Origin: an uncultured Porticoccus sp.
GTDB lineage: Bacteria; Pseudomonadota; Gammaproteobacteria; Pseudomonadales; Porticoccaceae
DNA: 64,000 nt
NCBI GenBank assembly: GCA_947259505.1
Contig: CAMYLT010000004.1
Span: forward strand, 1 to 64,000
Reading direction: 5' to 3'
Part shown: in pieces, positions 46,770 to 64,000 of the stretch
How positions within the stretch are numbered: the stretch's first letter is position 1
Layout: every line of letters begins with the position of its first letter
Position numbers and translations under genes: made by a program
The notes under the pieces: model-generated
Databases searched by the model: none
What the model was told of the DNA's origin: nothing
The model's input: only the letters and a program-made list of their open reading frames with translations

Positions 46770-49304
46770 ATGAAAAACAACAAGTTGGCAGGGATCTACG
46801 AAACTCTCATTTTACGCCGCCCGATTATCGCAATGCTCGCTATCATGTTAATTGCTATCGGTATGGCCTTTGGTTTGCCAAATCTCAAACTGGATGCGTC
46901 TCTCGACTCCCTCACGCTAGAGAACGACAACACCCTCGCCTACTATAGGCAATCGATACAACGTTACGGCAACAGTGATTTTCTGGTCGTCACCTATAAG
47001 CCTTTGAAAGGCGATCTGTTTGACGATAACAACTTACTGACCCTCAAGGAACTTTGCGACGAGCTAAGAGGCATTAAAGGTATTGCAAAAGTTACGTCAA
47101 TGCTGGATGTCCCATTGCTGTATAGCCCCAAAATTTCTGTTGAACAATTAAAGGAACCGTCTCGAACTCTGCTCCAACCGGATGTTGATCGAGACCTGGC
47201 TCGCAAAGAGTTTCTAGAAAGCCCGATCTATCACGACCTGATCCTCAGCGAAGACGCACAAACAACTATTATTCTGGCGGAAATGACGCTAGATGAAAAA
47301 TATCAGGCGCTGGTCAAAAGTATGGATACTCTGCGCATCAAACGTGACACGGTAGGTTTATCTCCGGATGAGGCTAGCGAACTTGCGTCAGTTAGCCAGG
47401 ATTTTCTGGATCAACGCACCCTGCGCGCTGCCGAAGAACAAGTACGTGTCGCAGAAATTCGGGAGAAGATGGCCCCGTTCAAAGCAAATGCCCAGATATT
47501 CCTTGGCGGCCTAAGTATGATAACCGCCGACATGGTTGACTATATTAAGAGCGATTTAGTTATATTCGGCACGGGTATCCTGCTCTTTATCATTGCTGTA
47601 CTAGCGATTATTTTCCGTCAGATTCGCTGGGTCATACTGCCACTGGCTACCTGTATCCTCTGTGTTGAAATCATACTCGGCTACCTTGGCTGGCTCGATT
47701 GGCGCATGACCGTTGTCTCTTCCAATTTTGTAGCCCTATTATTAATTATCACGCTGGCACTAACGATTCACCTGATTGTGCGCTACCGCGAGCTGTGCCT
47801 TGAATCCCCCGATAAAGAACAAGTTGCTTTAGTACGAGACACGGTGAGGAGCATGGCTCGCCCCTGTTTATACACCATGCTAACGACCGTGGCTGCCTTC
47901 TCTTCGCTAGTGCTCAGTGATATTCGCCCGGTTATTGATTTTGGCTGGATGATGACCATCGGACTGGTGCTGGCGCTAATCATTACCTTTGTCATGATCC
48001 CTGCCGGAATGATGATTTTCGGAAAGGGCTTGACCAATGAGACGGATGACACTTCGAGCGCGCTAACTCTCAACTTTTCCCGCTTTACAGAGCATTATGG
48101 TGGCTTGGTACTGGGACTGGCATTACTCGCGGCGATAGCCAGCGTATGGGGAATATCCCGATTAAAGGTAGAAAATCATTTTATCGACTACTTCCACGCC
48201 GACAGTGAAATTTATCAAGGGCTTTGGCTCATAGATAACAAATTAGGGGGCACCATGCCCCTGGATATCATCCTGGATGCCCCTCCATCAGTTGATGATG
48301 GTTCTGGACTCAGTGCAGAGGATGAACTTTATTTTGCAGAGGAAGGATTAGACGAGGTTGATCTGATTGAAGACAGCTATTGGTTTACTCGTCCCGGTAT
48401 TGACGATTTGAAAAAACTTCAGGACTATCTCGAATCCTTGCCCGAAGTCGGCAAAGTCAGTTCTTTGGTTATGACGACGGACATATATTCGGATTTGGTG
48501 AATCGCAAAATCAGTGATTTTGAATTGTCCTTACTGTCTCTGATGATGTCTCCCGAAAATACCGCACTGCTCCTCACACCTTACGTTGATGAACTTCAAA
48601 ATCAATCGAGGATTACCCTGCGCGTTAAAGACACCCTCGGCGACTTAAACCGCAATCAATTACTGGACAAGATCCATCACTTCGCCATTGATGAAGCAGG
48701 TTTTAAGGAAGACCAGGTTCACTTTACCGGACTGATGGTGCTGTATAACAACATGCTACAGAGTCTTTTCCGCTCCCAGATACTGACAATGGGAATGGTG
48801 TTCCTCTGTATTATGGCCATGTTTCTAGTGCTATTCCGCTCACTTTCTGTGGCGCTGATCGCTATTTTCCCCAATCTCTTAGCGGCAGGTGTTGTACTTG
48901 GCGGAATGGGCCTTGCCGGCATTCCCCTTGATATGATGACTATTACCATCGCAGCCATCACCGTGGGGATTGGAGTCGATCATGAGATCCATTACATCAC
49001 CCGCTTCAAACATGAGCTGTCTATTGACCAGGATTACATTGCCAGCATGCATAGAGCACACGCCAGCATTGGAAGGGCACTGCTCTATACCACCGTTATC
49101 ATTATCGTAGGCTTCTCTGTTCTGATGTTGTCAAACTTTATTCCATCAGTGTATTTTGGGTTGCTCACGGGGATGGCCATGTTGACGGCACTGCTGGCAT
49201 CTATGACGCTACTGCCAAAATTGATTCTGGTTTTCAAACCGTTCAAGACAAACAATAAAGTTAATGACGCCAGTAGCTCGCCGGGGTCATCGAATGGCCA
49301 ATGA
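46770..49304 (+). CDS. RND/MMPL superfamily exporter
   Basis: An 844-residue transporter with the duplicated MMPL layout. The first membrane helix (about 17-36) is followed by a large periplasmic domain (about 37-265), then five helices (about 267-420); the pattern then repeats with a second periplasmic domain (about 465-660) and helices to the end. GVDHEIHYITRFKHEL near 735, inside the C-terminal membrane part, corresponds to the conserved polar helix of the proton relay. Relatives export lipids, hopanoids or siderophores. No membrane-fusion protein or outer-membrane partner is adjacent. Its cargo is unknown. It is a distant paralogue of the RND protein at 54308. Confidence 0.87.
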   Translation: MKNNKLAGIYETLILRRPIIAMLAIMLIAIGMAFGLPNLKLDASLDSLTLENDNTLAYYRQSIQRYGNSDFLVVTYKPLKGDLFDDNNLLTLKELCDELRGIKGIAKVTSMLDVPLLYSPKISVEQLKEPSRTLLQPDVDRDLARKEFLESPIYHDLILSEDAQTTIILAEMTLDEKYQALVKSMDTLRIKRDTVGLSPDEASELASVSQDFLDQRTLRAAEEQVRVAEIREKMAPFKANAQIFLGGLSMITADMVDYIKSDLVIFGTGILLFIIAVLAIIFRQIRWVILPLATCILCVEIILGYLGWLDWRMTVVSSNFVALLLIITLALTIHLIVRYRELCLESPDKEQVALVRDTVRSMARPCLYTMLTTVAAFSSLVLSDIRPVIDFGWMMTIGLVLALIITFVMIPAGMMIFGKGLTNETDDTSSALTLNFSRFTEHYGGLVLGLALLAAIASVWGISRLKVENHFIDYFHADSEIYQGLWLIDNKLGGTMPLDIILDAPPSVDDGSGLSAEDELYFAEEGLDEVDLIEDSYWFTRPGIDDLKKLQDYLESLPEVGKVSSLVMTTDIYSDLVNRKISDFELSLLSLMMSPENTALLLTPYVDELQNQSRITLRVKDTLGDLNRNQLLDKIHHFAIDEAGFKEDQVHFTGLMVLYNNMLQSLFRSQILTMGMVFLCIMAMFLVLFRSLSVALIAIFPNLLAAGVVLGGMGLAGIPLDMMTITIAAITVGIGVDHEIHYITRFKHELSIDQDYIASMHRAHASIGRALLYTTVIIIVGFSVLMLSNFIPSVYFGLLTGMAMLTALLASMTLLPKLILVFKPFKTNNKVNDASSSPGSSNGQ

Positions 49305-51653: not shown

Positions 51654-51839
51654 TTAAACTAGCCTTTGGCAGGGGCGGGCAAACATTACCAGCTTTATTT
51701 TATATTGGGTCGTAAAGTCAGTTTACAAGGTAAGGCTCATAATAGTTTTATAACGAATAATGCACACCTATTCTTCTTACGACTCTAAAGCAAAGAAGAT
51801 GCGCGAAGCCTAAACAGTGATAGAGCAGAATCCCTACAG

Positions 51840-51911
51840 CAATGAGGCGCTCATTACGCTACCGCTTCGTCAGCCGCTGACGGTAATACAGTGTTCCCGT
51901 GGACCTCATTG
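51840..51911 (+). promoter_or_regulatory. nested inverted repeats before the lipoprotein-sorting/RND operon
   Basis: The outer arms CAATGAGG (51840-51847) and CCTCATTG (51904-51911) are perfect. Inside lie ATTAC/GTAAT (51853-51857 with 51883-51887) and the perfect palindrome CGTCAGCCGCTGACG (51868-51882, seven bases each side of a central C). It is 38 bases before the operon's first start codon. It may be an operator, a structured leader or a small repeat element. No family is recognised. Confidence 0.4.
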
Positions 51912-51948
51912 CTCGTTAGAATGGCGGAAACAACAGTCCGGGGGACAA

Positions 51949-52812
51949 GTGAGCAATATCACCAGAATACATCAATGGTTTCTGCTTACTCTTTTTTTGC
52001 TTCCTTCCTTCAGCTCTTTGGGGGAATCAATCTCCTCTGCTCCCAACAAGGCTAACCAGTTAGCACAAGCTGTCTACGATAACCCCAACGGTCAAGATGC
52101 CAGCTCAAAGGTTCTCATGAGCATCGAGGGCAAGGGCTCGACAAAACAACGTATTCTCTATAGCTATGCAGCCGACAAAGGAAACGGCGAACGCTCGACA
52201 CTGCTTCGCTTTATTAAGCCAAATGATGTTGCCAGAACAGGGCTGCTAACGATGGATTTTGCTGATAACGATAGCAACCAATGGTTGTATCTACCAGCCC
52301 TTGACCGAGTTCGCCGCATTGCCTCATCCAGAAAAGGGGGCCGCTTCGTTGGGTCTGATTTCTACTACGAGGATCTTTCAGACAGAGATGTGGCCATGGA
52401 TCACCACAGGATTATTGGTCAGGATACCGTTGGCGGCGTAAAATGCACCTTGCTCGAAAGCATTCCGGTAGACAAAAAAAACTCTGTTTATAGCAAACGA
52501 ACCAGCTGCATTCACTCCAAAATTCTCATCCCTCTGAGAATTGATTACTACGAAAACAACCAGGATGCCCCCAGTAAACGATTGCAAGCGAGAAAAATAA
52601 AGCGGGTTCAAGGCTACTGGACTGTCTTCGACAGCACGATGTACAACCTCAAAACGGGGAGCAGCACAAAGTTATTCACTCTGGACATCCAGTATGATCA
52701 AGGTATTCCCGACAGTCTTTTCAGTCAGCATGGACTTTCAGATGATAGTAGGGAGATCCCGTTCCGTCCTGATGGAGCCGCCAGCAAAGGAAACGCATAT
52801 GAAACCAACTGA
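51949..52812 (+). CDS. outer-membrane lipoprotein-sorting protein, LolA-like
   Basis: A 287-residue periplasmic protein. A signal peptide (about 8-25) is followed by a beta-rich domain with QLAQAVYDNPNGQDASSK, RSTLLRFIKPNDVARTGLLT (given as LLRFIKPNDVARTGLL), QWLYLPALDRVRRIASSRKGG (as WLYLPALDRVRRI) and FVGSDFYYEDLSDRD. This fits the LolA-like outer-membrane lipoprotein-sorting family often found with RND/MMPL exporters. Start: the GTG at 51949 is chosen because GGGGGA lies just upstream and the signal follows directly; the ATG at 51817 would add 44 residues before it. It should carry a lipid or lipoprotein across the periplasm. Confidence 0.78.
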   Translation: MSNITRIHQWFLLTLFLLPSFSSLGESISSAPNKANQLAQAVYDNPNGQDASSKVLMSIEGKGSTKQRILYSYAADKGNGERSTLLRFIKPNDVARTGLLTMDFADNDSNQWLYLPALDRVRRIASSRKGGRFVGSDFYYEDLSDRDVAMDHHRIIGQDTVGGVKCTLLESIPVDKKNSVYSKRTSCIHSKILIPLRIDYYENNQDAPSKRLQARKIKRVQGYWTVFDSTMYNLKTGSSTKLFTLDIQYDQGIPDSLFSQHGLSDDSREIPFRPDGAASKGNAYETN

Positions 52813-54292
52813 GAACCTTTCTTCATTACTGATCGTCACTCTGCTGGCTGCAGTCAGCCCGATCTGCTCTCATGCAGAAGAATTGGATACACTCATTCTT
52901 GATAACGAGGAAGGCGAATTTCTAATCATTGATGAGGCAATGACATCTGCTGAAGAAAGCACTGCCGAGCAGGAGGAAATACTTGTCCTGGACGACGTGA
53001 ATGACGATGCGTTGCTTATTGACGGGGACAGGGAAGATCCTGCGTTCGCCCCACTGTCGCAAACAGACCAGAGTACGATGGGAACGCACTCACAACCTCT
53101 CACCGTAAAAGTCGACAAACTCTGGGTTGAATATGGCCAGTTTACCAAAAATTCCGCCAGTAAAAATCACCAAGGTTACTTGAATTCCATGGCAACAGCG
53201 GAGTGGAAACCCTCCAGCAAATGGGAATTCCATGCATCCATTCGAGCTGATGGATATTCTGAGTCAGGTAGCAATGATTGGGATGATCTCCAGTTAGATT
53301 ACGATGAAATTTATATTCGGTTCAGGACCGACAATTCCATATTTACCCTTGGCTCACAAAAAGTACTTTGGGGCCGGATTGACGAGTTCCCTCCTACAGA
53401 CCGGCTCAGCACACAGGATTTTCGGCGTTTTGTACTTGACGATCTGTCAGACCGTCGCCTTGCTTCTCCTGCTATCCGTATGGAACATTTTTTTAATAAT
53501 AAGAAAATCGATCTGGTTTACTATCCACACTTTCGAGAAGCCCAATTAGCTGACAAAGACAGTATTTGGTATCCGGTCAATAAAGAAACTGGAGAAATAC
53601 TGGGGCTAGACACTACCGACACCGCTGAAGCCATTGTTAAAACCACATCTGTAGCTGAACATGCGCCAAATTCAGACGGTGGCTTTGGCCTTCGATTCAG
53701 CAGCCTCAGCTCCGGCTTTGATTACGCAATAACTGTGCAGAAGGGCCATCAAACTGTTCCCTACTTCAGCTACAACCCCAATGAAAATATCATTGAGGGC
53801 CGATACCCAAGAACCTGGATAATCGGCGGCGACTTTGGTACAGAAGCGCTTGGTGGCACTCTAAAATTTGAAGCCAGCTGGCTAAGCGACACACCTGTAA
53901 CGCGCAAAGATGGCAGATATACCACTGTCGAAAGTGTCAACTGGGGAGTAGCACTGGAGTTATTCCCGGGAGATGGAGATACTCGCCTCAACCTGCAGCT
54001 GACGAGCATTAAACTTTTTGGTGCACCCTCTGTCATGGACCGAGACGAACTCTACTCATTTAACGGCTCCTTAGAGGTCCCTTTTTCAGAAAACCGGTGG
54101 CGTGCAAAAATGCGCTTCAACACAGGGCTTGATGAGAAAGATACCTACTTAAATCCTGAAATTGCTTTCACTGGCTGGGAGGCCCAAGAAGTCTACTTGG
54201 AATTCCATTTTTTTGATGGAGACAAGGGTACACCAGGAGGATTTTATGAAGACAATAACATCCTGACTCTAGGCTGGAGGAAGAGCTTTTGA
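52799..54292 (+). CDS. outer-membrane beta-barrel protein partner of the RND exporter
   Basis: A 497-residue exported protein. The start at 52799 overlaps the upstream gene by 14 bases and has AAAGGA upstream. After the signal (about 1-25), an acidic segment (about 27-85) contains repeated strands LILDNEEGEFLIIDE and ILVLDDVNDDALLIDGD. From about 102 on, alternating strands (YGQF, WKPSSKWEFHASIRADGYSE, IYIRFRTDNSIFTLGSQKVLWGR) and an aromatic C-terminal Phe indicate a transmembrane barrel, DUF1302-like. IRFRTDNSIFTLGSQKV is typical of long barrels. It probably forms the outer-membrane part of the exporter. Confidence 0.76.
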   Translation: MKPTENLSSLLIVTLLAAVSPICSHAEELDTLILDNEEGEFLIIDEAMTSAEESTAEQEEILVLDDVNDDALLIDGDREDPAFAPLSQTDQSTMGTHSQPLTVKVDKLWVEYGQFTKNSASKNHQGYLNSMATAEWKPSSKWEFHASIRADGYSESGSNDWDDLQLDYDEIYIRFRTDNSIFTLGSQKVLWGRIDEFPPTDRLSTQDFRRFVLDDLSDRRLASPAIRMEHFFNNKKIDLVYYPHFREAQLADKDSIWYPVNKETGEILGLDTTDTAEAIVKTTSVAEHAPNSDGGFGLRFSSLSSGFDYAITVQKGHQTVPYFSYNPNENIIEGRYPRTWIIGGDFGTEALGGTLKFEASWLSDTPVTRKDGRYTTVESVNWGVALELFPGDGDTRLNLQLTSIKLFGAPSVMDRDELYSFNGSLEVPFSENRWRAKMRFNTGLDEKDTYLNPEIAFTGWEAQEVYLEFHFFDGDKGTPGGFYEDNNILTLGWRKSF

Positions 54293-54307: not shown

Positions 54308-56944
54308 ATGACTAGTATCAACACTGAATCACATCTCTACCGCCATCGGCTTGCGAACGAACGCAACGCCTTAGCAGTACTTCATGAAGGTATCATCCTA
54401 TTTGCCAATGATGCTTTTTCCAGGCGCCTGGGCTATGACTCAGCGGACGAGCTGGAGGCGACTCCCCTACTTGACCTATTGAGCGGCCTTCGTAAAGAGG
54501 AGATCCGGGACTATCTCCTGAAGGCCAGCCTGACCGAGTATCATGAAACCGACACCCCGCAAGTGCAAGTTATACTGCAACTAAAAAATGGGTCTTCCAA
54601 AAAAGCCACTCTGCATGCCTACCGACGGCGTATTGATGGAGAAGACGTCATTGAGTTACAGCTACTAACAGAAGATGACCTGAAATTTCATAAGCGTTTA
54701 TTGCGCCTGCCATGGAAACTCTACCTCAGTTTTTTATGCTTAATTCTGGTGACAGTACTACCCAATCTCCTACTGCCTAACCTGAATATCAACAATGCAC
54801 CCAAGACTTATCTTCCGGATGACGCTCCGTCAGTATTAATTGACGCACGAGTACGAGAATTCTTTCCTGATGATGAGGTCATCGTATTGCTCTTTGAGGG
54901 CGTGGCACTCTTTTCTGATGGATTTCTGAATGCTTACGATGAATTAGCAGAAGAGCTACAGAACCACCCTCTCATCAATGATGTTATCGCCATCACACGC
55001 CAGGACCATATCAGCGGCTCAGAGGATGGCTTTCTTGTAGAACCCTTGCTCAACCTGAAATACCTCGATGATTCAAAACCGAAAGATCGTCTTAAACACG
55101 CCTTGTCAGACCGGTTTGCCAAAAGCTCATTGGTAGCAGAAGACGGTTCCGCCATTGCGCTGGTGATAATCCCCCAATCTCTGGATGACAGTATCCGACA
55201 CTTGGCCTTGGAAGAAGAAATCACCCAAATGGTGTACAAGCACCAGCTAGGTGGCTACCTAACTGCTATGGCCGGGGAAATAGCTACAGATGTGGCGCAA
55301 ATGCGCGCCATTCTCCATGACAACATGATATTTATTCCCGCCACCGTCGCTGTTGGACTTCTTCTAATTTGGTGGTTATTCCACCGTTGGATCGCTGTCA
55401 TCGTGACAGGGGTCGTAACAAGCGCGGTAGTGAGTTCAACTATCGCCTTCTACGTTCTCTTTCAACAACCATTTAACTCCATTGCCGGCATTATCCCCCC
55501 CCTGCTATCCGCGCTGACGATTGCATCATTAGTACACTTTTTCAATGCCCTTCACTATGCATCCAAACGAGGCCTTGCGGGAAAAGAGAGAGTGCAATCT
55601 GCTCTCAAGGAAATCAGGCGACCTGCGCTGTTCAGTGCACTGACAACATCGGCGGGTTTGGCATCATTGGGGCTGAGCCCCATTCCACCGATCAGCACAT
55701 TTGGCTTGACCTCCGCCGTTGGCGTCTTTCTTATTTACCTGATCGTGATATATATCCTGCCACCTATCTTTGCTCGCTTCGACTACCAACAATGGCCTAC
55801 TCGTAAAGCAGGACTCGCCTTAATAGATGTCCTGGTCAGAAAACTGTTTCATCTCGGAATCCGTTACCCTATATGGGTATTAAGTATCACTTTCCTCGCT
55901 TTGCTGGCAGGTATTCCGCAAATTTTAAAAGTAAACGTCGAAACCAATATTCTTGAATTTTTTTCACCCAGCCACCCTCTGCGTATTGCAACCACTGAGA
56001 TTGAAGAGAAACTGGTGGGCACAACCCCTCTTGAAGTGATTTTCAGTGCCGACCCATCATCATCGCTCATTCAACCTAAAACACTTAACGATATTAAGCA
56101 GTTTCAACTTTGGCTAGGTGATCAGTCAGAAGTTGACAAAGATATCTCTATTGTCGACTTTGTGGAGGAGATGAACTGGGGCTTTCATGCAGAAAACAAC
56201 ACGTTTCGTCGCATCCCGGACGATCCTGACTTAATCAGCCAGTACCTTTTTATCTATGATGGCACCGATCTTTTCGACTTTATTGATGAAGATTTTCGCA
56301 TAACCCGAGTGGCTCTCAACGCCAACGTCCATGGCGCTAATCAGATAAATCATTTGATGCAACGAATTGAACAGTTTTTGCAAGCTCACCCTGTAACAGG
56401 CACGCAATGGGAGATTTCCGGAGCAGGCAGGTTATTTGCCGATCAGGAACGTCTACTCATTAAGGGCCAAATCTACAGTCTGGGCGGTGCACTACTATTA
56501 ATATTTTTGCTGATGCTGTGGCTCTGGAGATCTCTGCGGGATACCGCTGTCTGCATGATTCCAAACATTTCACCCATTTTGCTGATTTTTATCATCATGG
56601 GCTTTCTAGGCATCTGGCTGGACATGGCAACGGCTATGATCGCCAGCGTTGCTGTGGGCATCGCCATCGACGATACCATTCACATTTTCCATGGCTTCAT
56701 TTATCGCGTCAGAAAAGGCCACAACCCAACACTTGCCCTCGTGCGAACATACGGACAAGCCGGACGGGCCGTTATGACCACATCCGTCATTTTATGTGCC
56801 CAATTCTCCCTGCTACTTGCGAGCGCTTTTGTGCCGATGGGGCATTTCGGGGCGCTGACAAGTGTTGGGCTGCTCACGGCCCTGGTTTTTGACTTACTAC
56901 TACTCCCCGCACTACTGACCGTGGTCTATAGAAAGCGAGTTTAA
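54308..56944 (+). CDS. RND/MMPL exporter with N-terminal PAS-like domain
   Basis: An 878-residue fusion. Residues about 17-120 look like a PAS domain: AVLHEGIILFANDAFSRRLGYDS (given as LHEGIILFANDAFSRRLGY) is a classic PAS opening, then VQVILQLKNGSSKKATLHAY and IDGEDVIELQLL. Residues about 138-156 form the first membrane helix, after which the MMPL layout repeats twice with large periplasmic loops. GIAIDDTIHIFHGF near 790 is the conserved transport helix. The PAS domain is cytoplasmic by topology and may gate transport by a ligand or redox signal. It is the third gene of the LolA-like/barrel/RND operon. Cargo is unknown. Confidence 0.82.
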   Translation: MTSINTESHLYRHRLANERNALAVLHEGIILFANDAFSRRLGYDSADELEATPLLDLLSGLRKEEIRDYLLKASLTEYHETDTPQVQVILQLKNGSSKKATLHAYRRRIDGEDVIELQLLTEDDLKFHKRLLRLPWKLYLSFLCLILVTVLPNLLLPNLNINNAPKTYLPDDAPSVLIDARVREFFPDDEVIVLLFEGVALFSDGFLNAYDELAEELQNHPLINDVIAITRQDHISGSEDGFLVEPLLNLKYLDDSKPKDRLKHALSDRFAKSSLVAEDGSAIALVIIPQSLDDSIRHLALEEEITQMVYKHQLGGYLTAMAGEIATDVAQMRAILHDNMIFIPATVAVGLLLIWWLFHRWIAVIVTGVVTSAVVSSTIAFYVLFQQPFNSIAGIIPPLLSALTIASLVHFFNALHYASKRGLAGKERVQSALKEIRRPALFSALTTSAGLASLGLSPIPPISTFGLTSAVGVFLIYLIVIYILPPIFARFDYQQWPTRKAGLALIDVLVRKLFHLGIRYPIWVLSITFLALLAGIPQILKVNVETNILEFFSPSHPLRIATTEIEEKLVGTTPLEVIFSADPSSSLIQPKTLNDIKQFQLWLGDQSEVDKDISIVDFVEEMNWGFHAENNTFRRIPDDPDLISQYLFIYDGTDLFDFIDEDFRITRVALNANVHGANQINHLMQRIEQFLQAHPVTGTQWEISGAGRLFADQERLLIKGQIYSLGGALLLIFLLMLWLWRSLRDTAVCMIPNISPILLIFIIMGFLGIWLDMATAMIASVAVGIAIDDTIHIFHGFIYRVRKGHNPTLALVRTYGQAGRAVMTTSVILCAQFSLLLASAFVPMGHFGALTSVGLLTALVFDLLLLPALLTVVYRKRV

Positions 56945-56947
56945 AGT

Positions 56948-59725
56948 TCAGTTTTTTGAGGTGAGCGTCTTCAGCAACTGCTCGGCCTCGGCTCGGTTTG
57001 CAAAGCTTTTAGCATCAACTAACAAGGATTTCAGCGTGTTGATAGCCGCCTCATCATTACCTGCGGCACTATTAATCATGGCACTGTGATAAAGAATTGA
57101 GGCATCCCCCTTACTTTGAGACACAGCGCGCTCTATGGTTCGCTGCGCCCGCACAGTCTCACCATTTTTCAACAGGACTACTGCCAAGGTATCCAGTGTT
57201 TCAGCAGTCTGGCCACCGAATTCAACTGCTTTCTCCACATACAGCAATGCCTTTTTGGGGTCTAAATCCTGAAGCAACCATGCAAGATTATTCAACGCAA
57301 GGTAGTGCTGAGGGGCTATTTTCAGAATAGCCATGTATTCATCTACTGCCCGGTCATTTTCACCTTTGCCCATATAAAGCGTTGCCAATTCAAGTCGCAC
57401 GGAAGTGTCTTGGGGGTGCTGCTTCAGCCAATTTTCCATCATTTCCTGAGAACCACTTCGATCGCCCATAATCCAGTGCTGCTGAGATAGAACTAACATA
57501 TTTCTCGAGGTTGGCGACTTTTCAAATGCCTGAGCAGACAAAGATAACGCCTTTTCTGCTTCCCCATCACGCATTGCTTGAACTGCACCGAGTTGTAGAA
57601 CTTCCGGGTGCTCCGGTGCCAATTTTTTTAATGCCGCCAAGTTCTCATCGGCAAGATCCTTTTCGTTTTGGCTAAACAGCATACGAGTCAGCTCAATGCG
57701 AGGTTCCAGGTAAGCTGGAGACATTTCAATTGCCTTTTCAAACTCTGCTCGCTCCCTATCCCTCTCACCTAGACCTCGATAAGTCATACCTAGATGATAA
57801 TGTGGCTGTGGTGCATGTGGTCTCATATTTGCCAGCTTCTCAAACGTCGCCCTGGCATCCTGATACTCTTTTCTATCAAGAAATGACATGCCAGCCACAT
57901 TCAATACGTCGGGAAGGTCTTGCATGGATTGATCAAGTGGGCCGAGAACTACGGGAACTTGCTCAGGCTGCCCCTTAGCCAGATATAAACGGGCCAGCAT
58001 CACTCTTGGCTCAACTTCCTTGGGATGTATTTCCATTGCCTTTTTCAGCTGGCTCTCCATGCCCTTATAATCTTTTTGTAACTCTGACAAGGCTGCCTGC
58101 TTTAACAGCGTTGGCAAATGATCAGGGTGGGTTTTAAGGATGGCTTCGTAGTGAATGCGAGCATCATTGAACTTTTCCTCCCGAATAGACAAAAAGGCTA
58201 ATTTTTCATTTGCGGTCGGATCATCCTCTGCAATCTCAAGCGCTTTGTTATAAGCAAGGCGTGCATCAACCAGATTATCTTGTGAAAGGTAAATTTCACC
58301 ACGTAAATTATAGGGAGCCACGCTACCAGGATTTTTTGTTCGATAGGCATCTACCGCATTTAGCGCCGCCTTGATATCACCTTGTCTTAGGTGTGCCGAG
58401 ACCAACAGTAAATCAGCTTCCTCAAACTCCGGATCCAATCTCAAAGCAGTTTCAATATGCTCAAGACTAGCCGCCACATCCCCACTAACCAAGAATCCTG
58501 CACCTAAACGGCTATGCGCTGCAGGGGAATCTGGATGTAGTGCGACGACCCTTGCCAAAAGATCAAGACTTTCCTTGGTTTTGCCTTGTCGCAACAAAAC
58601 GCCCGCGAGAGTATTCAAAGCATCAACATCCCCGGCATTTGCATCCACTACCGGGCGAATCAACTCCTCTGCCTCAGAGAAGTTACCTTCTTGCAACTTC
58701 ATGGACGCCAACAATTTACGCCCCGGAACACTATTGGGCGCGATGGAAAGATAACGGTATGAGTAGTCTTCTGCCTGAGCGGTATTTCCCAAGTTATTGT
58801 GCGCGACGGCAAGATAAAACAACGCCATGGGGTAGCGATTTTCATCTATCTGGGCTATGTCAAAAGCAGTGACAGCATCCTTCATGTTTCCCTCACGAAA
58901 CAATAGAATACCGTTTAAATACTGCCCCCCCGGACTTTTTGGAGCCCGTTTTAGCAGTACCGCTGCGTCTTCTTTTGCACCACTTAGATTTTCATTCTGC
59001 AGTCTTACCAACCCTCTCTTATAATAATCATCAAGACGAGTATCATCACTTTCCAGTGCTCGACTATAGGCCTCTTCCGCAGCTTTTGGATTCAGATCGT
59101 GTAGTTCAATATCACCCAACAGGCTCCAAGCCGGAGCATAGTCCGGTGCAATCTCTATTACTCTTCCAATCAACGGCCTGACACCAGCCCAATTCCCATT
59201 TGACACAATGCCCTGTAATTTAGCCTGAGCTAACATTACAAAAGGTGACTCAGGTGTTGCGACCAAAGCTTTTTCGATCAATTTTTCAGCTTCTTTAACA
59301 TTACCACGCACTAACTTGCTCAGCCCCTGCGCTGCAAGCACAGTAGCCTGAGCCTCTCCAGAAAGACCGTCGACATTCAAGGAGTCCAACGACTTGATAT
59401 CATTGAGAGCAAGGTATGACTGCGCCAGTAGAGGAAAGACATCCTTGTCCGATTGGCCAAGTTCATGCGCCTTCACTAATTCTTTGACGGCATCAGGGTA
59501 GCCCCCTCTCTCAAAATAAAGCTTACCGAGCATCCAGCGGGCCTGCTGGTTATTTCCATTTTTTTGGAGGGCATTCTTTAATTCAATGACTGCGGCCTTC
59601 TGCTTTCCCTCAGACAAATACATCTTTGCTTGGTCTACCTCCTTACTGCCTGTCATATCACCACTACAGGCAAGCAACAGCCCTGCTATCAACACAAGTA
59701 AACCGCTTCGAATGCACATACTCAT
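56948..59725 (-). CDS. prsT: PEP-CTERM system TPR-repeat lipoprotein PrsT
   Basis: A 925-residue lipoprotein with lipobox LLAC (Cys20). The mature part is a nearly unbroken array of TPR helices (for example KMYLSEGKQKAAVIELKNAL and YAPAWSLLGDIELHDLNPKA). This fits TIGR02917, the TPR protein of PEP-CTERM/exosortase systems, in length and in its opening LSEGKQKAAVIELKNALQKN (given here in part). In other genomes it sits near prsK/prsR and the EPS genes. It may scaffold polysaccharide or protein export. It is convergent with the RND gene, only three bases apart. Confidence 0.88.
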   Translation of the reverse strand: MSMCIRSGLLVLIAGLLLACSGDMTGSKEVDQAKMYLSEGKQKAAVIELKNALQKNGNNQQARWMLGKLYFERGGYPDAVKELVKAHELGQSDKDVFPLLAQSYLALNDIKSLDSLNVDGLSGEAQATVLAAQGLSKLVRGNVKEAEKLIEKALVATPESPFVMLAQAKLQGIVSNGNWAGVRPLIGRVIEIAPDYAPAWSLLGDIELHDLNPKAAEEAYSRALESDDTRLDDYYKRGLVRLQNENLSGAKEDAAVLLKRAPKSPGGQYLNGILLFREGNMKDAVTAFDIAQIDENRYPMALFYLAVAHNNLGNTAQAEDYSYRYLSIAPNSVPGRKLLASMKLQEGNFSEAEELIRPVVDANAGDVDALNTLAGVLLRQGKTKESLDLLARVVALHPDSPAAHSRLGAGFLVSGDVAASLEHIETALRLDPEFEEADLLLVSAHLRQGDIKAALNAVDAYRTKNPGSVAPYNLRGEIYLSQDNLVDARLAYNKALEIAEDDPTANEKLAFLSIREEKFNDARIHYEAILKTHPDHLPTLLKQAALSELQKDYKGMESQLKKAMEIHPKEVEPRVMLARLYLAKGQPEQVPVVLGPLDQSMQDLPDVLNVAGMSFLDRKEYQDARATFEKLANMRPHAPQPHYHLGMTYRGLGERDRERAEFEKAIEMSPAYLEPRIELTRMLFSQNEKDLADENLAALKKLAPEHPEVLQLGAVQAMRDGEAEKALSLSAQAFEKSPTSRNMLVLSQQHWIMGDRSGSQEMMENWLKQHPQDTSVRLELATLYMGKGENDRAVDEYMAILKIAPQHYLALNNLAWLLQDLDPKKALLYVEKAVEFGGQTAETLDTLAVVLLKNGETVRAQRTIERAVSQSKGDASILYHSAMINSAAGNDEAAINTLKSLLVDAKSFANRAEAEQLLKTLTSKN

Positions 59726-59974: not shown

Positions 59975-60895
59975 TCAAGCAGAAAGACCCGCTTGCGTTT
60001 TTCTGCGACGAACCAAACCCATCAGCAACAAGCTACCAGCCAACAAGGCAAGAGTTGCAGGCTCAGGAATGAAGTTCTCAGTTGCAACAATCGCAAATGC
60101 CAGCGCGAATGCATTGGCCTGATTTTCAAAGGTAGTAAAGCCAATACAATCAGCGCCAGCACCTACAGCCGCACACGCCGCATCACTCAGGACACCCAGA
60201 CCAGGTGCAGTGATGTAAACATCGTAGGTGTAGATATCATCGATAAAGCTGTCGATCAAGAAGGCAACAATTGATCCGTTAAGAATCGTGGGGAGACCCA
60301 ACAAACCACCGGAAAGTGCGAAAATATCGCCACATCCAAACTCGGCACTATAAGCAACACCCTCAGGGCAAGAAGCAGGAGAACCTATATTGTTAGTTGT
60401 TTCTTGGAAATCAATGCCAAAAGTAATTTGCTGCGTATGATCAGTGCCACCACCAAATGGAGACAGAACCACATAATCCTGAGCAGTAGTGCTATCCAAA
60501 GAAGTGCCTGTGATAACGAAGTTATTGTGCACGACCACGGGGCCCAAACCAAAAGTAACAGCATTCAGGTCAGTAGAGGTGACAATGTTACCCTGAACCA
60601 GCGTATTGCTAGGCGTGGTTGAATCACCCCCTGTAGGATTGATAACCAGACTACTCACTTTGTTAAAAGTGTTTGAGGCAGTACCCCAACTCAGCTTGGT
60701 ATAACCATCAACGTCAGTCACACCTGCTGTCGCACCTTCTTTAACAACCCCTGCAGGAGCAATGGGCTCAACCCACTCAAACTCTTGGGTGTAATCAAAG
60801 GAGGCAATGGGGTCTGCCATAGCTGCCGAAGCCACCAAGGCGGAGGCAAGGCCCGCACCGACAGCCAGCTTTTTAATAAATTTATATGCTTTCAT
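59975..60895 (-). CDS. PEP-CTERM sorting-signal protein (THxN-like family)
   Basis: A 306-residue exported protein. A signal peptide (about 1-27, ending AMADP) starts the protein, and the sorting signal ends it: PEP at 277-279, hydrophobic ATLALLAGSLLLMGLV, then RRRK. The central part has VHNNFVITGTSLDSTTAQDY and TFGIDFQETTNN, resembling the THxN family of PEP-CTERM proteins with VHNN instead of THxN. Exosortase would cleave it and attach or release it outside the cell. Its promoter is a sigma-54 type (61008-61023). Function is unknown; such proteins are linked to extracellular matrix and floc formation. Confidence 0.86.
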   Translation of the reverse strand: MKAYKFIKKLAVGAGLASALVASAAMADPIASFDYTQEFEWVEPIAPAGVVKEGATAGVTDVDGYTKLSWGTASNTFNKVSSLVINPTGGDSTTPSNTLVQGNIVTSTDLNAVTFGLGPVVVHNNFVITGTSLDSTTAQDYVVLSPFGGGTDHTQQITFGIDFQETTNNIGSPASCPEGVAYSAEFGCGDIFALSGGLLGLPTILNGSIVAFLIDSFIDDIYTYDVYITAPGLGVLSDAACAAVGAGADCIGFTTFENQANAFALAFAIVATENFIPEPATLALLAGSLLLMGLVRRRKTQAGLSA

Positions 60896-61183: not shown

Positions 61184-62353
61184 GTGCCTGAAGCCAATGT
61201 TGCTTTTATTTTTGACCGCACAGAACAAGCTGACCATAATTCTCTGATGATGAATCAAGCCGATCTTTTATCCCTCGTTTCAGCTGCCCATAAAGCCCCC
61301 TCTGCTGACAACTCCCAGCCTCTACATTTTATTTGGGATGGAGAAGTACTCTCCATCCGATACGACGAGACAAGGGTGGAAGGGCGGACCTTCCCTGCCG
61401 ACAATCCCGCCACAATCCTTTCTGTCGGTGCTGCCGTTGAAAATATTTATAATAAGGCTCATCAACTCAACTTGAGTACAGATATAACTTGGTGGCCTAG
61501 GGGCGTTTCAGATATAAGTTATTATGCTGACATACGTTTCAAAAAAGCGGACTCTCCTATTAACTCCGCAACGACGAATGTGGATGAGGCTCCGTGTCGT
61601 CATACAAACCGCTTCCCCTATCACAAGACCCGCCTTCCCGCTTCTACCTTGGTCCCTTTACGACAACTTAACGAAAATCACGCCCGGCTTGTTATCATTG
61701 ATGGCCGAGAAGAAATCAAAAAAATTGGCGACATAGTTCGAAAGGCATCGGAAATTCGCTTCCAAACCAGGGAGGTTCACGAATGGCTGGGAGAAAGTTT
61801 ACGCTTTTCCGAGAAGGGTGTAAGAAATTCCGACGGTCTTGATGTGCGCACATTGGGCTTGCCCCCAGGAGGCACTCTACTTCTTAGATTCATTCGTAGC
61901 TGGAAGCGAATGTCATTTCTGAACCGCTTTGGCCTCTATAAAGTGTTGTCACGAATCGATGCCGCGCCGGTGAGTTCTGCTCCGGCCTTGATGGCCATCA
62001 TTTCACCTTCGGGGGCAGATGATATCGTTTCAGCAGGACGGCTTTTGAATAGGGGATGGATATATATAAATAGTGAGCAGATCGCGGCTCATCCTTACTA
62101 CGTCATCACAGACCAACTGGTCAGGCTTGAGACGAAATCTGTTCCAACATCACTTATAAGGCAAGCAAACACGCTAAAAAGTGAATGTGCAGCATTGTTT
62201 AATCTGGCGGAGGGGGAACGCCTGCAAATGCTCCTAAGACTTGGATACCCCAAACGGGAAGCACCGCCGCAATCTATGCGATTGCCAATAGAAGCAATTT
62301 TTACGGACCTCACCGCCCCTAATTCGGAAGATGCGCCAGGCAATATCTGTTAG
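61184..62353 (+). CDS. nitroreductase-like flavoprotein (Acg/MoeY C-terminal half type)
   Basis: A protein of up to 389 residues. The motif HKAPSADNSQPLHFIWDGEV (about 34-53) corresponds to the PSxxNxQPW block of Acg/Rv3131-type nitroreductases, and CRHTNRFPYHKTRL near 140 resembles the RRTxR block of that group. The rest is less typical. It could reduce or oxidise a small-molecule substrate with FMN. The start is uncertain: GTG at 61184 gives 389 residues and ATG at 61247 or 61250 gives about 368; neither has a clear ribosome site. It faces the ThiF-like gene with a four-base gap. Together they correspond to the two halves of Rv1355c/MoeY-type proteins. Confidence 0.7.
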   Translation: MPEANVAFIFDRTEQADHNSLMMNQADLLSLVSAAHKAPSADNSQPLHFIWDGEVLSIRYDETRVEGRTFPADNPATILSVGAAVENIYNKAHQLNLSTDITWWPRGVSDISYYADIRFKKADSPINSATTNVDEAPCRHTNRFPYHKTRLPASTLVPLRQLNENHARLVIIDGREEIKKIGDIVRKASEIRFQTREVHEWLGESLRFSEKGVRNSDGLDVRTLGLPPGGTLLLRFIRSWKRMSFLNRFGLYKVLSRIDAAPVSSAPALMAIISPSGADDIVSAGRLLNRGWIYINSEQIAAHPYYVITDQLVRLETKSVPTSLIRQANTLKSECAALFNLAEGERLQMLLRLGYPKREAPPQSMRLPIEAIFTDLTAPNSEDAPGNIC

Positions 62354-62357
62354 GAGC

Positions 62358-63224
62358 TTAACGGTAATCACTACCCAGTTGTTTTCTTGCGATGGCCAGG
62401 CCCAACTTTTGAATAGGGTTGGCATTACCCCAAGGGCGCCAAGTTTTCTTATAACAATTGCGATAAGCATCAAAATGTAACCCAAAAGGCGCGGCCAGTA
62501 CCGGACCTCGTTTCAACAATATCTTCAGAGCATGGGTGGCGACAACACCAGCGCATAGCTCACAGGCCATATTAGTAGATGGCCCCTTGTGAGCCTTAAA
62601 ATCCACTGCTGTGTCATCCACCAAATACGCAGACTGGAACATAGCCGGGGATAGCCCGAGCAGAAAACGTAATAGCTGCTCTTCTTCTGAATGCCCTTTC
62701 ATTCTGAAATACTGCTCAAAGCTCATACCCCCCGGCATAAAACACAAAAGAGCAGCCCCCATACCCAAGGGAGCTGCGGTGATAGCCGGAATACCTTTTT
62801 CTGCACAAGCTGCGAACACTGCTTGCCGGATATCAAGAGCAAAAAAATCGAGCCCATCCACATATAGGTCAACACCCGAGAGGAAGGTATCAAGATTATC
62901 TTTCGTTACCCCAGAAGAAAATTTTTGTAATACCAATTCAGGGTTAATCGCTGTTGCCAGCTCAGACAAAACTTCAACCTTGGGGCGACCAAGATGGGGC
63001 ATACTAGCCCCAGCCTGGCGATTGAAATTAGCCAACTCAAATATGTCTAAGTCGGCCACATGAAAATTTTGAATACCCAAACGGACCAAAGACAATAAAT
63101 GGCTTCCTCCAACTCCGCCAAGTCCTGCTATCGCCACACATTTGGTAGACAACACGTCCTGCTCTTCAGTGGTAACCCACCCAAGGTTGCGTGAAAAAGC
63201 CTCCTGATAATTAAAACTGCCCAC
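62358..63224 (-). CDS. ThiF/E1-like adenylyltransferase
   Basis: A 288-residue protein of the E1/ThiF fold. The nucleotide-binding motif AGLGGVGGSH (33-42), the DLDIFELANFNRQAGASMP stretch (58-76) and GRPKVEVL (79-86) are clear. It activates the C-terminus of a carrier protein or another carboxylate with ATP. Only one CxxC (CELC, 221-224) is present, so the usual double-CxxC zinc site of MoeB/ThiF is incomplete. No ubiquitin-like carrier is adjacent. The start is GTG (63222-63224), because no ATG precedes the conserved opening NLGWVTTEEQ. The nearest gene on the same strand is the acyltransferase at 63355, 130 bases upstream. Confidence 0.82.
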   Translation of the reverse strand: MGSFNYQEAFSRNLGWVTTEEQDVLSTKCVAIAGLGGVGGSHLLSLVRLGIQNFHVADLDIFELANFNRQAGASMPHLGRPKVEVLSELATAINPELVLQKFSSGVTKDNLDTFLSGVDLYVDGLDFFALDIRQAVFAACAEKGIPAITAAPLGMGAALLCFMPGGMSFEQYFRMKGHSEEEQLLRFLLGLSPAMFQSAYLVDDTAVDFKAHKGPSTNMACELCAGVVATHALKILLKRGPVLAAPFGLHFDAYRNCYKKTWRPWGNANPIQKLGLAIARKQLGSDYR

Positions 63225-63354
63225 CGAAAAAGAAATGCTGTGCTCCTTCTTAGCGCCTTTAAGAAATACTAATCCTTATTTTTCGACCAAAACACTATAA
63301 CTCAAATAACTTCAGCTTAGATTCGATTGAAACCCTTGCATCAGAGAACCAACC

Positions 63355-64000
63355 TCACTTAGACAATTTTTGAGCAACCGTACCGGCAGTACCCTCTACA
63401 AATTTCTGATAATCACCTTCAATATCGCTATAGATAGCATCATATAGCTTCCGCAAGTCAGGCAACATACCAAACACAGCAGCTGATGAGGTTGTAAAAT
63501 AAGGTGCCCGCATACCGTGATAGTCAATAGCCTTGCCCACTTTCTGAAACGTTATGCCAGAACGTTGTAAAAGTTTGGGAAGAAACGGTTCCATCATCGC
63601 AAAAACATTTGTGCGGCCGGTCAAATCTGTTAGTGCAGTGGCCGCCAGGAAAGAGGCAACAGATATCAGAGAGAATGTACGTCTTTCATGATAGGAACAA
63701 TCGATTGCCTCCACATCACCAAAACGAGTTCTGGCTTCTCCCGCTCGCCTTCTGAAGGATCCGTCAACAGCCAATCGAGATACTTCACAAATGGTATTTC
63801 GCTTTAAGCTCAAACTCTCGAGTAATGCCCTGTCTAGGCTATCAGAACAAAATAGCTCCATTGGCAAGCTATCTAATCCGCCGTCATCGGCAATCACCAA
63901 TCGTACGCAACCCGCAGGTCGACCCGTACCTTTATGCGTCACCAAGCAATGAAGCGACGAGTCATCAAAGCGGTCATGTTCCAGCCCTTCAGGAAAATTC
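63355..64000 (-). CDS. N-acyl amino acid synthase, PEP-CTERM/exosortase-associated (partial at window edge)
   Basis: The C-terminal 214 codons of an acyltransferase; the 5' end is outside the window. The open frame continues to the edge and gives FPEGLEHDRFDDSSLHCLV, then GRPAGCVRLV and CEVSRLAVDGSFRRR. This is the GNAT-fold pattern of TIGR03694 (N-acyl amino acid synthase FeeM-like, with autoinducer synthase relatives). Such enzymes join an acyl chain from acyl-ACP to an amino acid. The family is linked to PEP-CTERM genomes, which agrees with prsT and the PEP-CTERM protein nearby. It could supply the acylated substrate for the ThiF and nitroreductase proteins; that is inference. Confidence 0.8.
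   Translation of the reverse strand, partial: NFPEGLEHDRFDDSSLHCLVTHKGTGRPAGCVRLVIADDGGLDSLPMELFCSDSLDRALLESLSLKRNTICEVSRLAVDGSFRRRAGEARTRFGDVEAIDCSYHERRTFSLISVASFLAATALTDLTGRTNVFAMMEPFLPKLLQRSGITFQKVGKAIDYHGMRAPYFTTSSAAVFGMLPDLRKLYDAIYSDIEGDYQKFVEGTAGTVAQKLSK

Follow-up and report, generated by a model that had tools for sequence, protein, structure and literature searches.

The locus and its three enzymes

The window analysed here, that is, the whole stretch of 64,000 nucleotides at positions 1 to 64,000 of contig CAMYLT010000004.1, comes from an uncultured Porticoccus sp. Our subject is a group of three genes at its end, which sits among genes of the exosortase A (XrtA)/PEP-CTERM system. 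An acyltransferase, a ThiF-like cyclase and an oxidase of the nitroreductase superfamily, the gene set of acyl-oxazolone pathways, are encoded together as follows:

61184..62353, + strand: candidate flavin-dependent oxidase/desaturase of the nitroreductase superfamily, Acg fold, lineage II; 389 amino acids from GTG
62358..63224, - strand: candidate ThiF/E1-like adenylating cyclase, PRK08223 (NF006077); 288 amino acids
63355..64000, - strand, running off the window end: N-acyl amino acid synthase, TIGR03694 (PEP-CTERM/exosortase-associated acyltransferase)

The open reading frame coordinates agree with the preliminary description of this locus: the flavoenzyme and ThiF-like genes converge on a 4-bp gap (62354-62357), and the synthase, on the strand of the ThiF gene, lies 130 bp upstream of that gene's start. 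The complete synthase has 262 amino acids and extends to contig position 64143 (L002:3355-4143; L and G numbers are our labels for loci and genomes). The 4-bp gap was seen in this genome only, being 21 bp in seven genus-mate loci and 38 bp in an eighth, and the convergent layout is kept across these loci despite the differing gap. The true flavoenzyme start may be an ATG at 61247 instead of the GTG at 61184, because genus-mate proteins have 357-373 amino acids and the model is of low confidence over residues 1-20 (block means of 46 and 55); the flavoenzyme of a distant relative (L096) has 389 amino acids, like the GTG-start version.

The synthase exceeds the TIGR03694 (exosort_acyl) cut-off of 111.95 bits with its in-window part (131.4 bits) and when complete (215.7 bits). 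The ThiF-like protein scored 423 bits against a cut-off of 266 for PRK08223, and stayed below the sulfur-carrier (ThiF/MoeB) equivalog cut-offs of TIGR02356 (83.8 versus 275 bits) and TIGR02355 (50.5 versus 377 bits). Fold matches of its predicted model, which had a predicted local distance difference test (pLDDT) score of 91.3, included AclA at the top, ThiF, MoeB and MccB; a literature search on AclA listed nothing relevant. By sequence, its matches to solved structures were TcdA (2.5e-19), ThiF (1.2e-18) and MoeB (5.8e-16). TcdA, the best of these by a small margin, and MccB, the fold match, share the fold of the window protein and act on small or peptide carboxylates, although their substrates differ; because the margin over ThiF was 2 bits, TcdA was dropped as a deciding precedent. 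Invariant among 54 aligned ThiF rows were GxGGVGG, D60, N66-x-N68-R69-Q70, K82 and D123-x-x-D126, which include the residues of the adenylation site. Only one CxxC pair is conserved in these rows; zinc-binding MoeB and ThiF carry two. ThiF matches at G029:C103:28070-28924 and G033:C37:5801-6664 have one in-frame stop each and are possibly decaying genes or sequencing errors.

The flavoenzyme passed the cut-off of Nitroreductase PF00881 (30.8 versus 23.5 bits), and its predicted model (pLDDT 89) was matched best by Foldseek to 2ymv (Acg; E 3.7e-13). FDO-A/FDO-B scoring gave close values, 139 bits with the Rv1355c profile and 130 with that of Rv3131, and both fall under the respective family cut-offs (476 bits for NF005901, the Rv1355c family, and 199 for NF047509, the Acg family). 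In an alignment of 52 rows, R139 and R143 were invariant and R192 nearly so. The two window proteins had been taken for the halves of Rv1355c; they are not simply such halves, since the ThiF-like protein reaches 56 bits against NF005901 and both proteins are thus well under the cut-off, and a split Rv1355c was rejected as a family assignment although the function is related. Judged by their sequences, the nearest fused relatives of the pair are PRK14851 and PRK14852. Two-domain fusions match PRK14851 end to end (L031 at 408 bits, under the cut-off of 1170), and PRK14852 is the three-domain form, to which the Nitratidesulfovibrio vulgaris protein described below scored 2397 bits (cut-off 1337).

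Conservation of the genes and their link with exosortase A

The strongest single fact in favour of a functional unit is WP_011787321, a 989-amino-acid FeeM-ThiF-nitroreductase chain encoded on plasmid pDVUL01 of N. vulgaris DP4 (L048:8062-11031). Its FeeM domain occupies residues 43-198 (5e-44), ThiF residues 316-565, and the nitroreductase begins at 609; nearby are polysaccharide genes of the XrtA type and genes for two THxN PEP-CTERM proteins. Sequence comparison places its fused synthase on a different branch from that of the window (E 0.012 for the window synthase against the FeeM stretch, pairwise BLAST). The N. vulgaris fusions were the only ones found when plasmids were searched for named Oxz/Trz-like fusions. 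Closer to the window, three loci of the same family or order (L031, L035 and L038) have a ThiF-flavoenzyme fusion directly downstream of TIGR03694 on the same strand.

Named genomes were scanned with the ThiF alignment, and the best 80 of 535 confirmed loci plus two plasmid loci were retained (82 in all, five repeating contigs of close relatives and one a class contig). A flavoenzyme was present in 67, fused to ThiF in 34, and a TIGR03694-like or FeeM-like synthase in 65; both were present in 52. Of 17 close-relative loci, the window included, 15 had the flavoenzyme, 15 the synthase and 13 both. The corresponding counts were 13, 13 and 8 for 20 further loci of the class, which were picked largely for the absence of a nearby TIGR03694 match. 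As controls we used 20 ThiF-fold genes other than PRK08223 from the listed relatives carrying PRK08223, with flanks of up to 8 kb on each side; with the same profiles, none (0/20) had a flavoenzyme, TIGR03694-like or FeeM-like gene. Lack of a conserved neighbourhood had been named beforehand as grounds for abandoning the idea of a pathway, and the neighbourhood proved to be conserved. By fusions, neighbourhood and co-occurrence the three genes belong together, as was first supposed, and they form a conserved module.

The flavoenzyme partner varies. Of 17 members of lineage II, the window type, 16 lie convergent to ThiF; these 16 loci come from Gammaproteobacteria and Burkholderiales, and the window flavoenzyme shares 33-57% identity with the remaining 15 of them. 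A fully supported branch separates lineage II from lineage I, the fused or tandem flavoenzymes (60 rows), and local alignments of the window protein with the fused type give 22-32% identity. In this tree, in which long branches were flagged, the exact “convergent” branch had a support of 38/60 and the 17-row branch including L191 a support of 100/100. On the ThiF tree, built by a quick method and also with long branches, the lineage-II label takes nine changes, at least four of them forced by supported branches. Identity of the window ThiF is 72% with L031 and L035, fused forms of its own family, and 64-65% with two convergent Burkholderiales forms. It seems from these comparisons that the same ThiF took different flavoenzymes several times, and such repeated exchange of partners argues that the flavoenzyme reaction is needed. 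Across 369 genomes of the class, the flavoenzyme profile matched 25 at E<=1e-60, all 25 also carrying ThiF, and 34 at E<=1e-20, 27 of them with ThiF; these counts are lower bounds, the first pass having scored at most five candidates per genome.

The locus was assigned to the XrtA/PEP-CTERM system from two proteins encoded in the window and from XrtA itself, which lies on the same contig at 97879-98652, 34 kb past the window end:

59975..60895, - strand: THxN-family PEP-CTERM protein (exosortase substrate), context, from family search
56948..59725, - strand: PrsT, XrtA/PEP-CTERM system TPR protein, context, from family search

Among 58 related genomes, XrtA scored at least 258 bits in 16, and the same 16 carry ThiF, 15 of them over the cut-off; G038 has only a stub of it, next to the synthase, where the contig ends. 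Two further relatives, whose XrtA barely passes the cut-off (211 and 212 bits), are without ThiF, so that 16 of 18 XrtA relatives have it, and none of the other 40 genomes has ThiF over the cut-off. In the 369 class-wide genomes, ThiF was found in 40, XrtA over the cut-off in 73 and both in 36 (Fisher p 4e-25, uncorrected for relatedness). Of the 40 ThiF genomes, 30 also have TIGR03694, and in 27 it lies on the same contig no more than 12 kb away. Strict dependence on XrtA, suggested by the 16 of 16 relatives with strong XrtA matches, was rejected because 37 of the 73 XrtA genomes in the class sample lack ThiF. The proposed connection with PEP-CTERM biology therefore stands as a strong association (36 of 40 ThiF genomes with XrtA) and not as a strict one.

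Several loci depart from the one-copy arrangement. Two or three synthase copies surround one ThiF in L062, L081, L120 and others, as in a published Stieleria cluster, which suggests several acyl or amino-acid substrates. The genus-mate G005 has the synthase-ThiF-flavoenzyme locus twice, on two contigs (L036 and L037); in a second one, G013, at least two copies of ThiF sit among different genes (L040 and L041). On a plasmid of Bdellovibrio sp. HAGR004 (L049:4251-8852), a PRK08223-type ThiF stands by LolA-like and FtsX/MacB ABC genes; no synthase or flavoenzyme was found in that stretch, and a 388-amino-acid protein without a family match there could be a divergent synthase.

A proposed acyl-oxazolone-type pathway and its alternatives

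The chemistry of homologous systems is known from published work. In Mycobacterium tuberculosis, TyzA acylates L-Tyr or L-Phe, TyzC, of the nitroreductase superfamily, desaturates, and TyzB, a ThiF protein, cyclises the product to an oxazolone. Rv1355c, whose reaction had been called unknown in the preliminary description, is TrzS, the tryptazolone synthase; this ThiF-oxidase fusion carries out an ATP-dependent cyclisation first and an O2-dependent desaturation second, and in its D217 and R540 alanine variants cyclisation is lost or desaturation impaired. OxzAB of Pseudoalteromonas rubra makes tyrazolones and phenazolones (de Rond et al. 2021, through citing papers). In OxzAB, TyzACB and TrzAS alike, N-acyl amino acids become desaturated oxazolones through cyclisation of the ThiF type and a desaturation that depends on flavin. 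The route envisaged earlier, in which an acylated amino acid is adenylated and a flavoenzyme then oxidises it to a lipid, has thus been shown in outline for homologues, and for the same reason it can no longer be called a new small-molecule pathway. Producers of stieleriacines, thalassotalic acids and kyonggic acids encode synthase, ThiF and nitroreductase and yield N-acyl dehydrotyrosines or dehydrophenylalanines; a Massilia without ThiF and nitroreductase in its candidate clusters yielded saturated compounds only.

We consider it likely that the three genes encode an acyl-oxazolone-type pathway in the XrtA/PEP-CTERM locus. In the first step the TIGR03694 synthase, to judge from its family, would join a fatty acyl group and an amino acid. 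In the second the ThiF-like enzyme would adenylate the carboxyl of this product, whose amide oxygen would close the oxazolone (azlactone) ring; this step is shown in homologues only, and its atom-level route is what we infer. In the third, likewise shown in homologues only, the Acg-fold flavoenzyme would desaturate the Calpha-Cbeta bond of the amino acid, before or after cyclisation, and hydrolysis would then yield an N-acyl dehydroamino acid.

One Rv1355c/TrzS-family fusion was found in another genome of the class, G384 (L209:5250-8209; 723 amino acids, 755 bits versus the cut-off of 476). It overlaps by 4 bp a 263-amino-acid gene without an NCBIfam match, to which the window synthase shows no similarity (E 3.0), and G384 has no PRK08223 match; L209 is a candidate for a second, independent oxazolone-type operon in the class. 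The protein served to map the TrzS residues by numbering offset. Window D126 aligns with D205 of L209, 12 residues below D217 of the M. smegmatis TrzS, and would be its equivalent. R192 aligns with R530, 10 residues below TrzS R540, to which it likely corresponds by the same offset. The position of TrzS Q651, which like R540 is FMN-proximal, falls at or next to a His (H303 in the window, H640 in L209), and the fused forms shown have Gln there.

The window set resembles each characterised system in part. OxzAB and the PRK14851-like fusions found here share a domain set, a proteobacterial acyltransferase gene with a ThiF-flavoenzyme fusion; in the window, unlike OxzAB, ThiF and flavoenzyme are split and convergent. 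TyzACB (Rv2336-Rv2338c), like the window, has separate genes for acyltransferase, ThiF cyclase and flavin-dependent oxidase, with an mmpL gene adjoining; TyzA has 41 homologues, mostly mycobacterial, and the main text on TyzACB does not mention exosortase. The flavoenzyme of TrzAS (Rv1356c-Rv1355c) resembles that of the window at 139 bits; TrzS is a fusion, whereas the window proteins are separate genes far under its family cut-off. The stieleriacine, thalassotalic and kyonggic acid clusters share all three genes, that of Stieleria maiorica also having a PEP-CTERM gene, and open N-acyl dehydrotyrosines were isolated from them, not rings. PRK08223, PRK14851 and PRK14852 themselves are families without a named function.

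Several observations weigh against such a pathway. To the limits of the readable literature, no product is known from the window organism or from any XrtA-linked member, and no oxazolone was detected in the producers of stieleriacines, thalassotalic acids and kyonggic acids. The 37 XrtA genomes without ThiF are mirrored by four of the 40 ThiF genomes without an XrtA match over the cut-off (two of them without any exosortase match at the threshold applied), so that neither depends on the other. No flavoenzyme was found within the stretch in 15 of the 82 named loci; seven of these have one or both flanks shorter than 3 kb, but in six both flanks extend to about 8 kb, which means that the desaturation is not always encoded locally. 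Conversely, ThiF is missing from seven of the 34 genomes that the flavoenzyme profile matched at E<=1e-20. Identity to the Rv1355c-family protein L209 is 30% over 138 columns for the window ThiF and 25% over 282 columns for the flavoenzyme. N. vulgaris is an anaerobe, a sulfate reducer, and carries the three-domain fusion. The characterised desaturases of this kind use O2; the N. vulgaris fusion would use another electron acceptor or be active only on exposure to air.

Within the proposed pathway, the end product could be the N-acyl dehydroamino acid itself, the ring being an intermediate that reopens to give a stieleriacine-like surfactant. This is possible, though we hold it to be on the doubtful side. 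The three-gene producers in which no ring was seen speak for it, as do the ease with which oxazolones open by hydrolysis or alcoholysis during work-up and the S. maiorica cluster, which has a PEP-CTERM gene inside and exopolysaccharide genes upstream; the Trz and Tyz enzymes, on the other hand, yield a ring that was detected under a mild quench.

The oxazolone might instead be a reactive acyl donor, opened by an amine or hydroxyl group on exopolysaccharide or a PEP-CTERM protein, or by an XrtA-cluster amine, so as to lipidate a surface component. The linkage to XrtA and the reported reaction of oxazolones with alcohols in work-up are in keeping with this. The contig also encodes what we take to be an acyl-CoA ligase, a pyridoxal phosphate-dependent decarboxylase and asparagine-synthase-like proteins of XrtA clusters, so named from sequence and gene order. 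We nevertheless think it improbable, as no transferase or acceptor was identified, 37 of the 73 XrtA genomes lack ThiF, and no experimental hint was found. Still more speculative is a version in which the lipid partner missing from the XrtA system is a product of the module: an oxazolone, opened by an XrtA-cluster amine or surface polymer, would yield a lipid that anchors PEP-CTERM proteins or exopolysaccharide to the outer membrane; we give it very little credence.

An Acg-like stress protein that stores flavin mononucleotide, placed next to ThiF by chance, would account for the flavoenzyme having Acg as its closest solved structure, lying on the opposite strand and belonging to a lineage far from the fused type. 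Chance is hard to reconcile with the 16 convergent lineage-II loci, with the conserved Arg residues and with the confinement of strong flavoenzyme matches to ThiF genomes (25 of 25), and we regard this explanation as improbable too. A conventional E1 for a ThiS- or MoaD-like sulfur carrier or a ubiquitin-like protein, with the synthase and flavoenzyme as unrelated neighbours, is less probable again. Its TcdA, ThiF and MoeB sequence matches are similar in strength, and the fold, being common to them, does not decide; relatives of the ThiF are, however, fused to synthase and flavoenzyme, none of the 20 control ThiF-fold genes has such neighbours, and only one CxxC pair is conserved. A search for a carrier gene, the other check by which the preliminary description could have fallen, found none that was convincing near ThiF, with just two unconvincing small GG-ending open reading frames in 97 loci and the rest of the genome outside the search. 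The sulfur-carrier E1 was rejected on the family cut-offs, the neighbourhood and the lack of a plausible nearby carrier. ThiF with nitroreductase is usual in thiazole/oxazole-modified microcin (TOMM)/YcaO-type pathways, a candidate that was set aside because no YcaO was among the module and neighbour families scanned, in which no dedicated YcaO search was included.

Proposed export genes, possible surface role and significance

Three genes in line in the window may bear on the fate of the product:

51817..52812, + strand: LolA-like periplasmic lipid-carrier candidate (PF17131, 193 bits)
52694..54292, + strand: protein without known family (no Pfam match), between the LolA-like and MMPL genes; presumed outer-membrane
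54308..56944, + strand: MMPL/HAE3-type RND transporter, the proposed product exporter

MMPL/HAE3 or LolCE-like (FtsX-type) genes were found near the module in 25 of 77 named loci (the 82 less five repeating relatives' loci), 10 of 20 class loci and 10 of 17 close relatives, as compared with 0 of 20 controls. In the same order, a LolA-like gene was found in 18, 9 and 0, relatives of the 52694..54292 protein in 7, 6 and 0, and neither in any control; the 17 close-relative stretches mostly end before the expected LolA-like position. AcrB-type pumps occurred near the module in 5, 1 and 2 loci and in 2 of 20 controls. The contrast is indicative, since the queries were drawn from module neighbourhoods and the controls from relatives of the window only. 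The transporter at 54308-56944 has a weak N-terminal PAS match (TIGR00229, E 0.0016, below cut-off), which is odd for a lipid exporter, and a second MMPL-family transporter (PF03176) lies at 46770-49304, 2.5 kb upstream of the LolA-like gene.

In a fourth step, drawn from this gene neighbourhood, the MMPL/LolA-like genes (elsewhere LolCE-like) would export an amphiphile, which would act in exopolysaccharide- or PEP-CTERM-dependent biofilm or floc formation. This step, export together with action at the cell surface, may be so, although we lean slightly the other way. The M. tuberculosis tyz genes are reported to adjoin mmpL9, and tyrazolone to have been recovered from cell pellets but not from supernatants. 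A synthase mutant of Methylomonas sp. LW13 is reported to have lost its normal polysaccharide band, which complementation restored. The Methylomonas loci L074, L077 and L079 have ThiF and flavoenzyme, with a synthase in the stretch for L077 alone. THIF-type genes next to an ABC permease are also listed for a PEP-CTERM/exopolysaccharide region of Rubrivivax gelatinosus, the passage checked making no remark on them.

No full-text work was found that joins PEP-CTERM, N-acyl amino acid synthase and nitroreductase, or exosortase, ThiF, nitroreductase and acyltransferase. Exosortase and PEP-CTERM terms were absent from the main texts searched on oxazolone and stieleriacine biosynthesis, as were ThiF and nitroreductase terms from the 2006 PEP-CTERM/EpsH paper. 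The passages checked in texts naming both ThiF and PEP-CTERM do not draw the link, and de Rond et al. (2021) or Craig et al. (2011) may note one between ThiF and XrtA. As far as searched, the new elements are the frequent pairing of an acyl-oxazolone-type module with exosortase A, the exchange of oxidases, a three-domain fusion and recurring lipid-export genes.

For PRK08223, PRK14851 and PRK14852, named only “hypothetical protein” in NCBIfam, the proposal supplies a testable reaction, and it would place acyl-oxazolone-type lipid synthesis in the exosortase A/exopolysaccharide loci of many Pseudomonadota. The link between the synthase and PEP-CTERM was already known and is credited to Craig et al. 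(2011). It came with no downstream chemistry in the readable literature, and candidates for the two enzymes that follow can now be named, together with a likely exporter. A role of acyl-oxazolones in biofilm or floc formation would be testable in tractable hosts such as Methylomonas.

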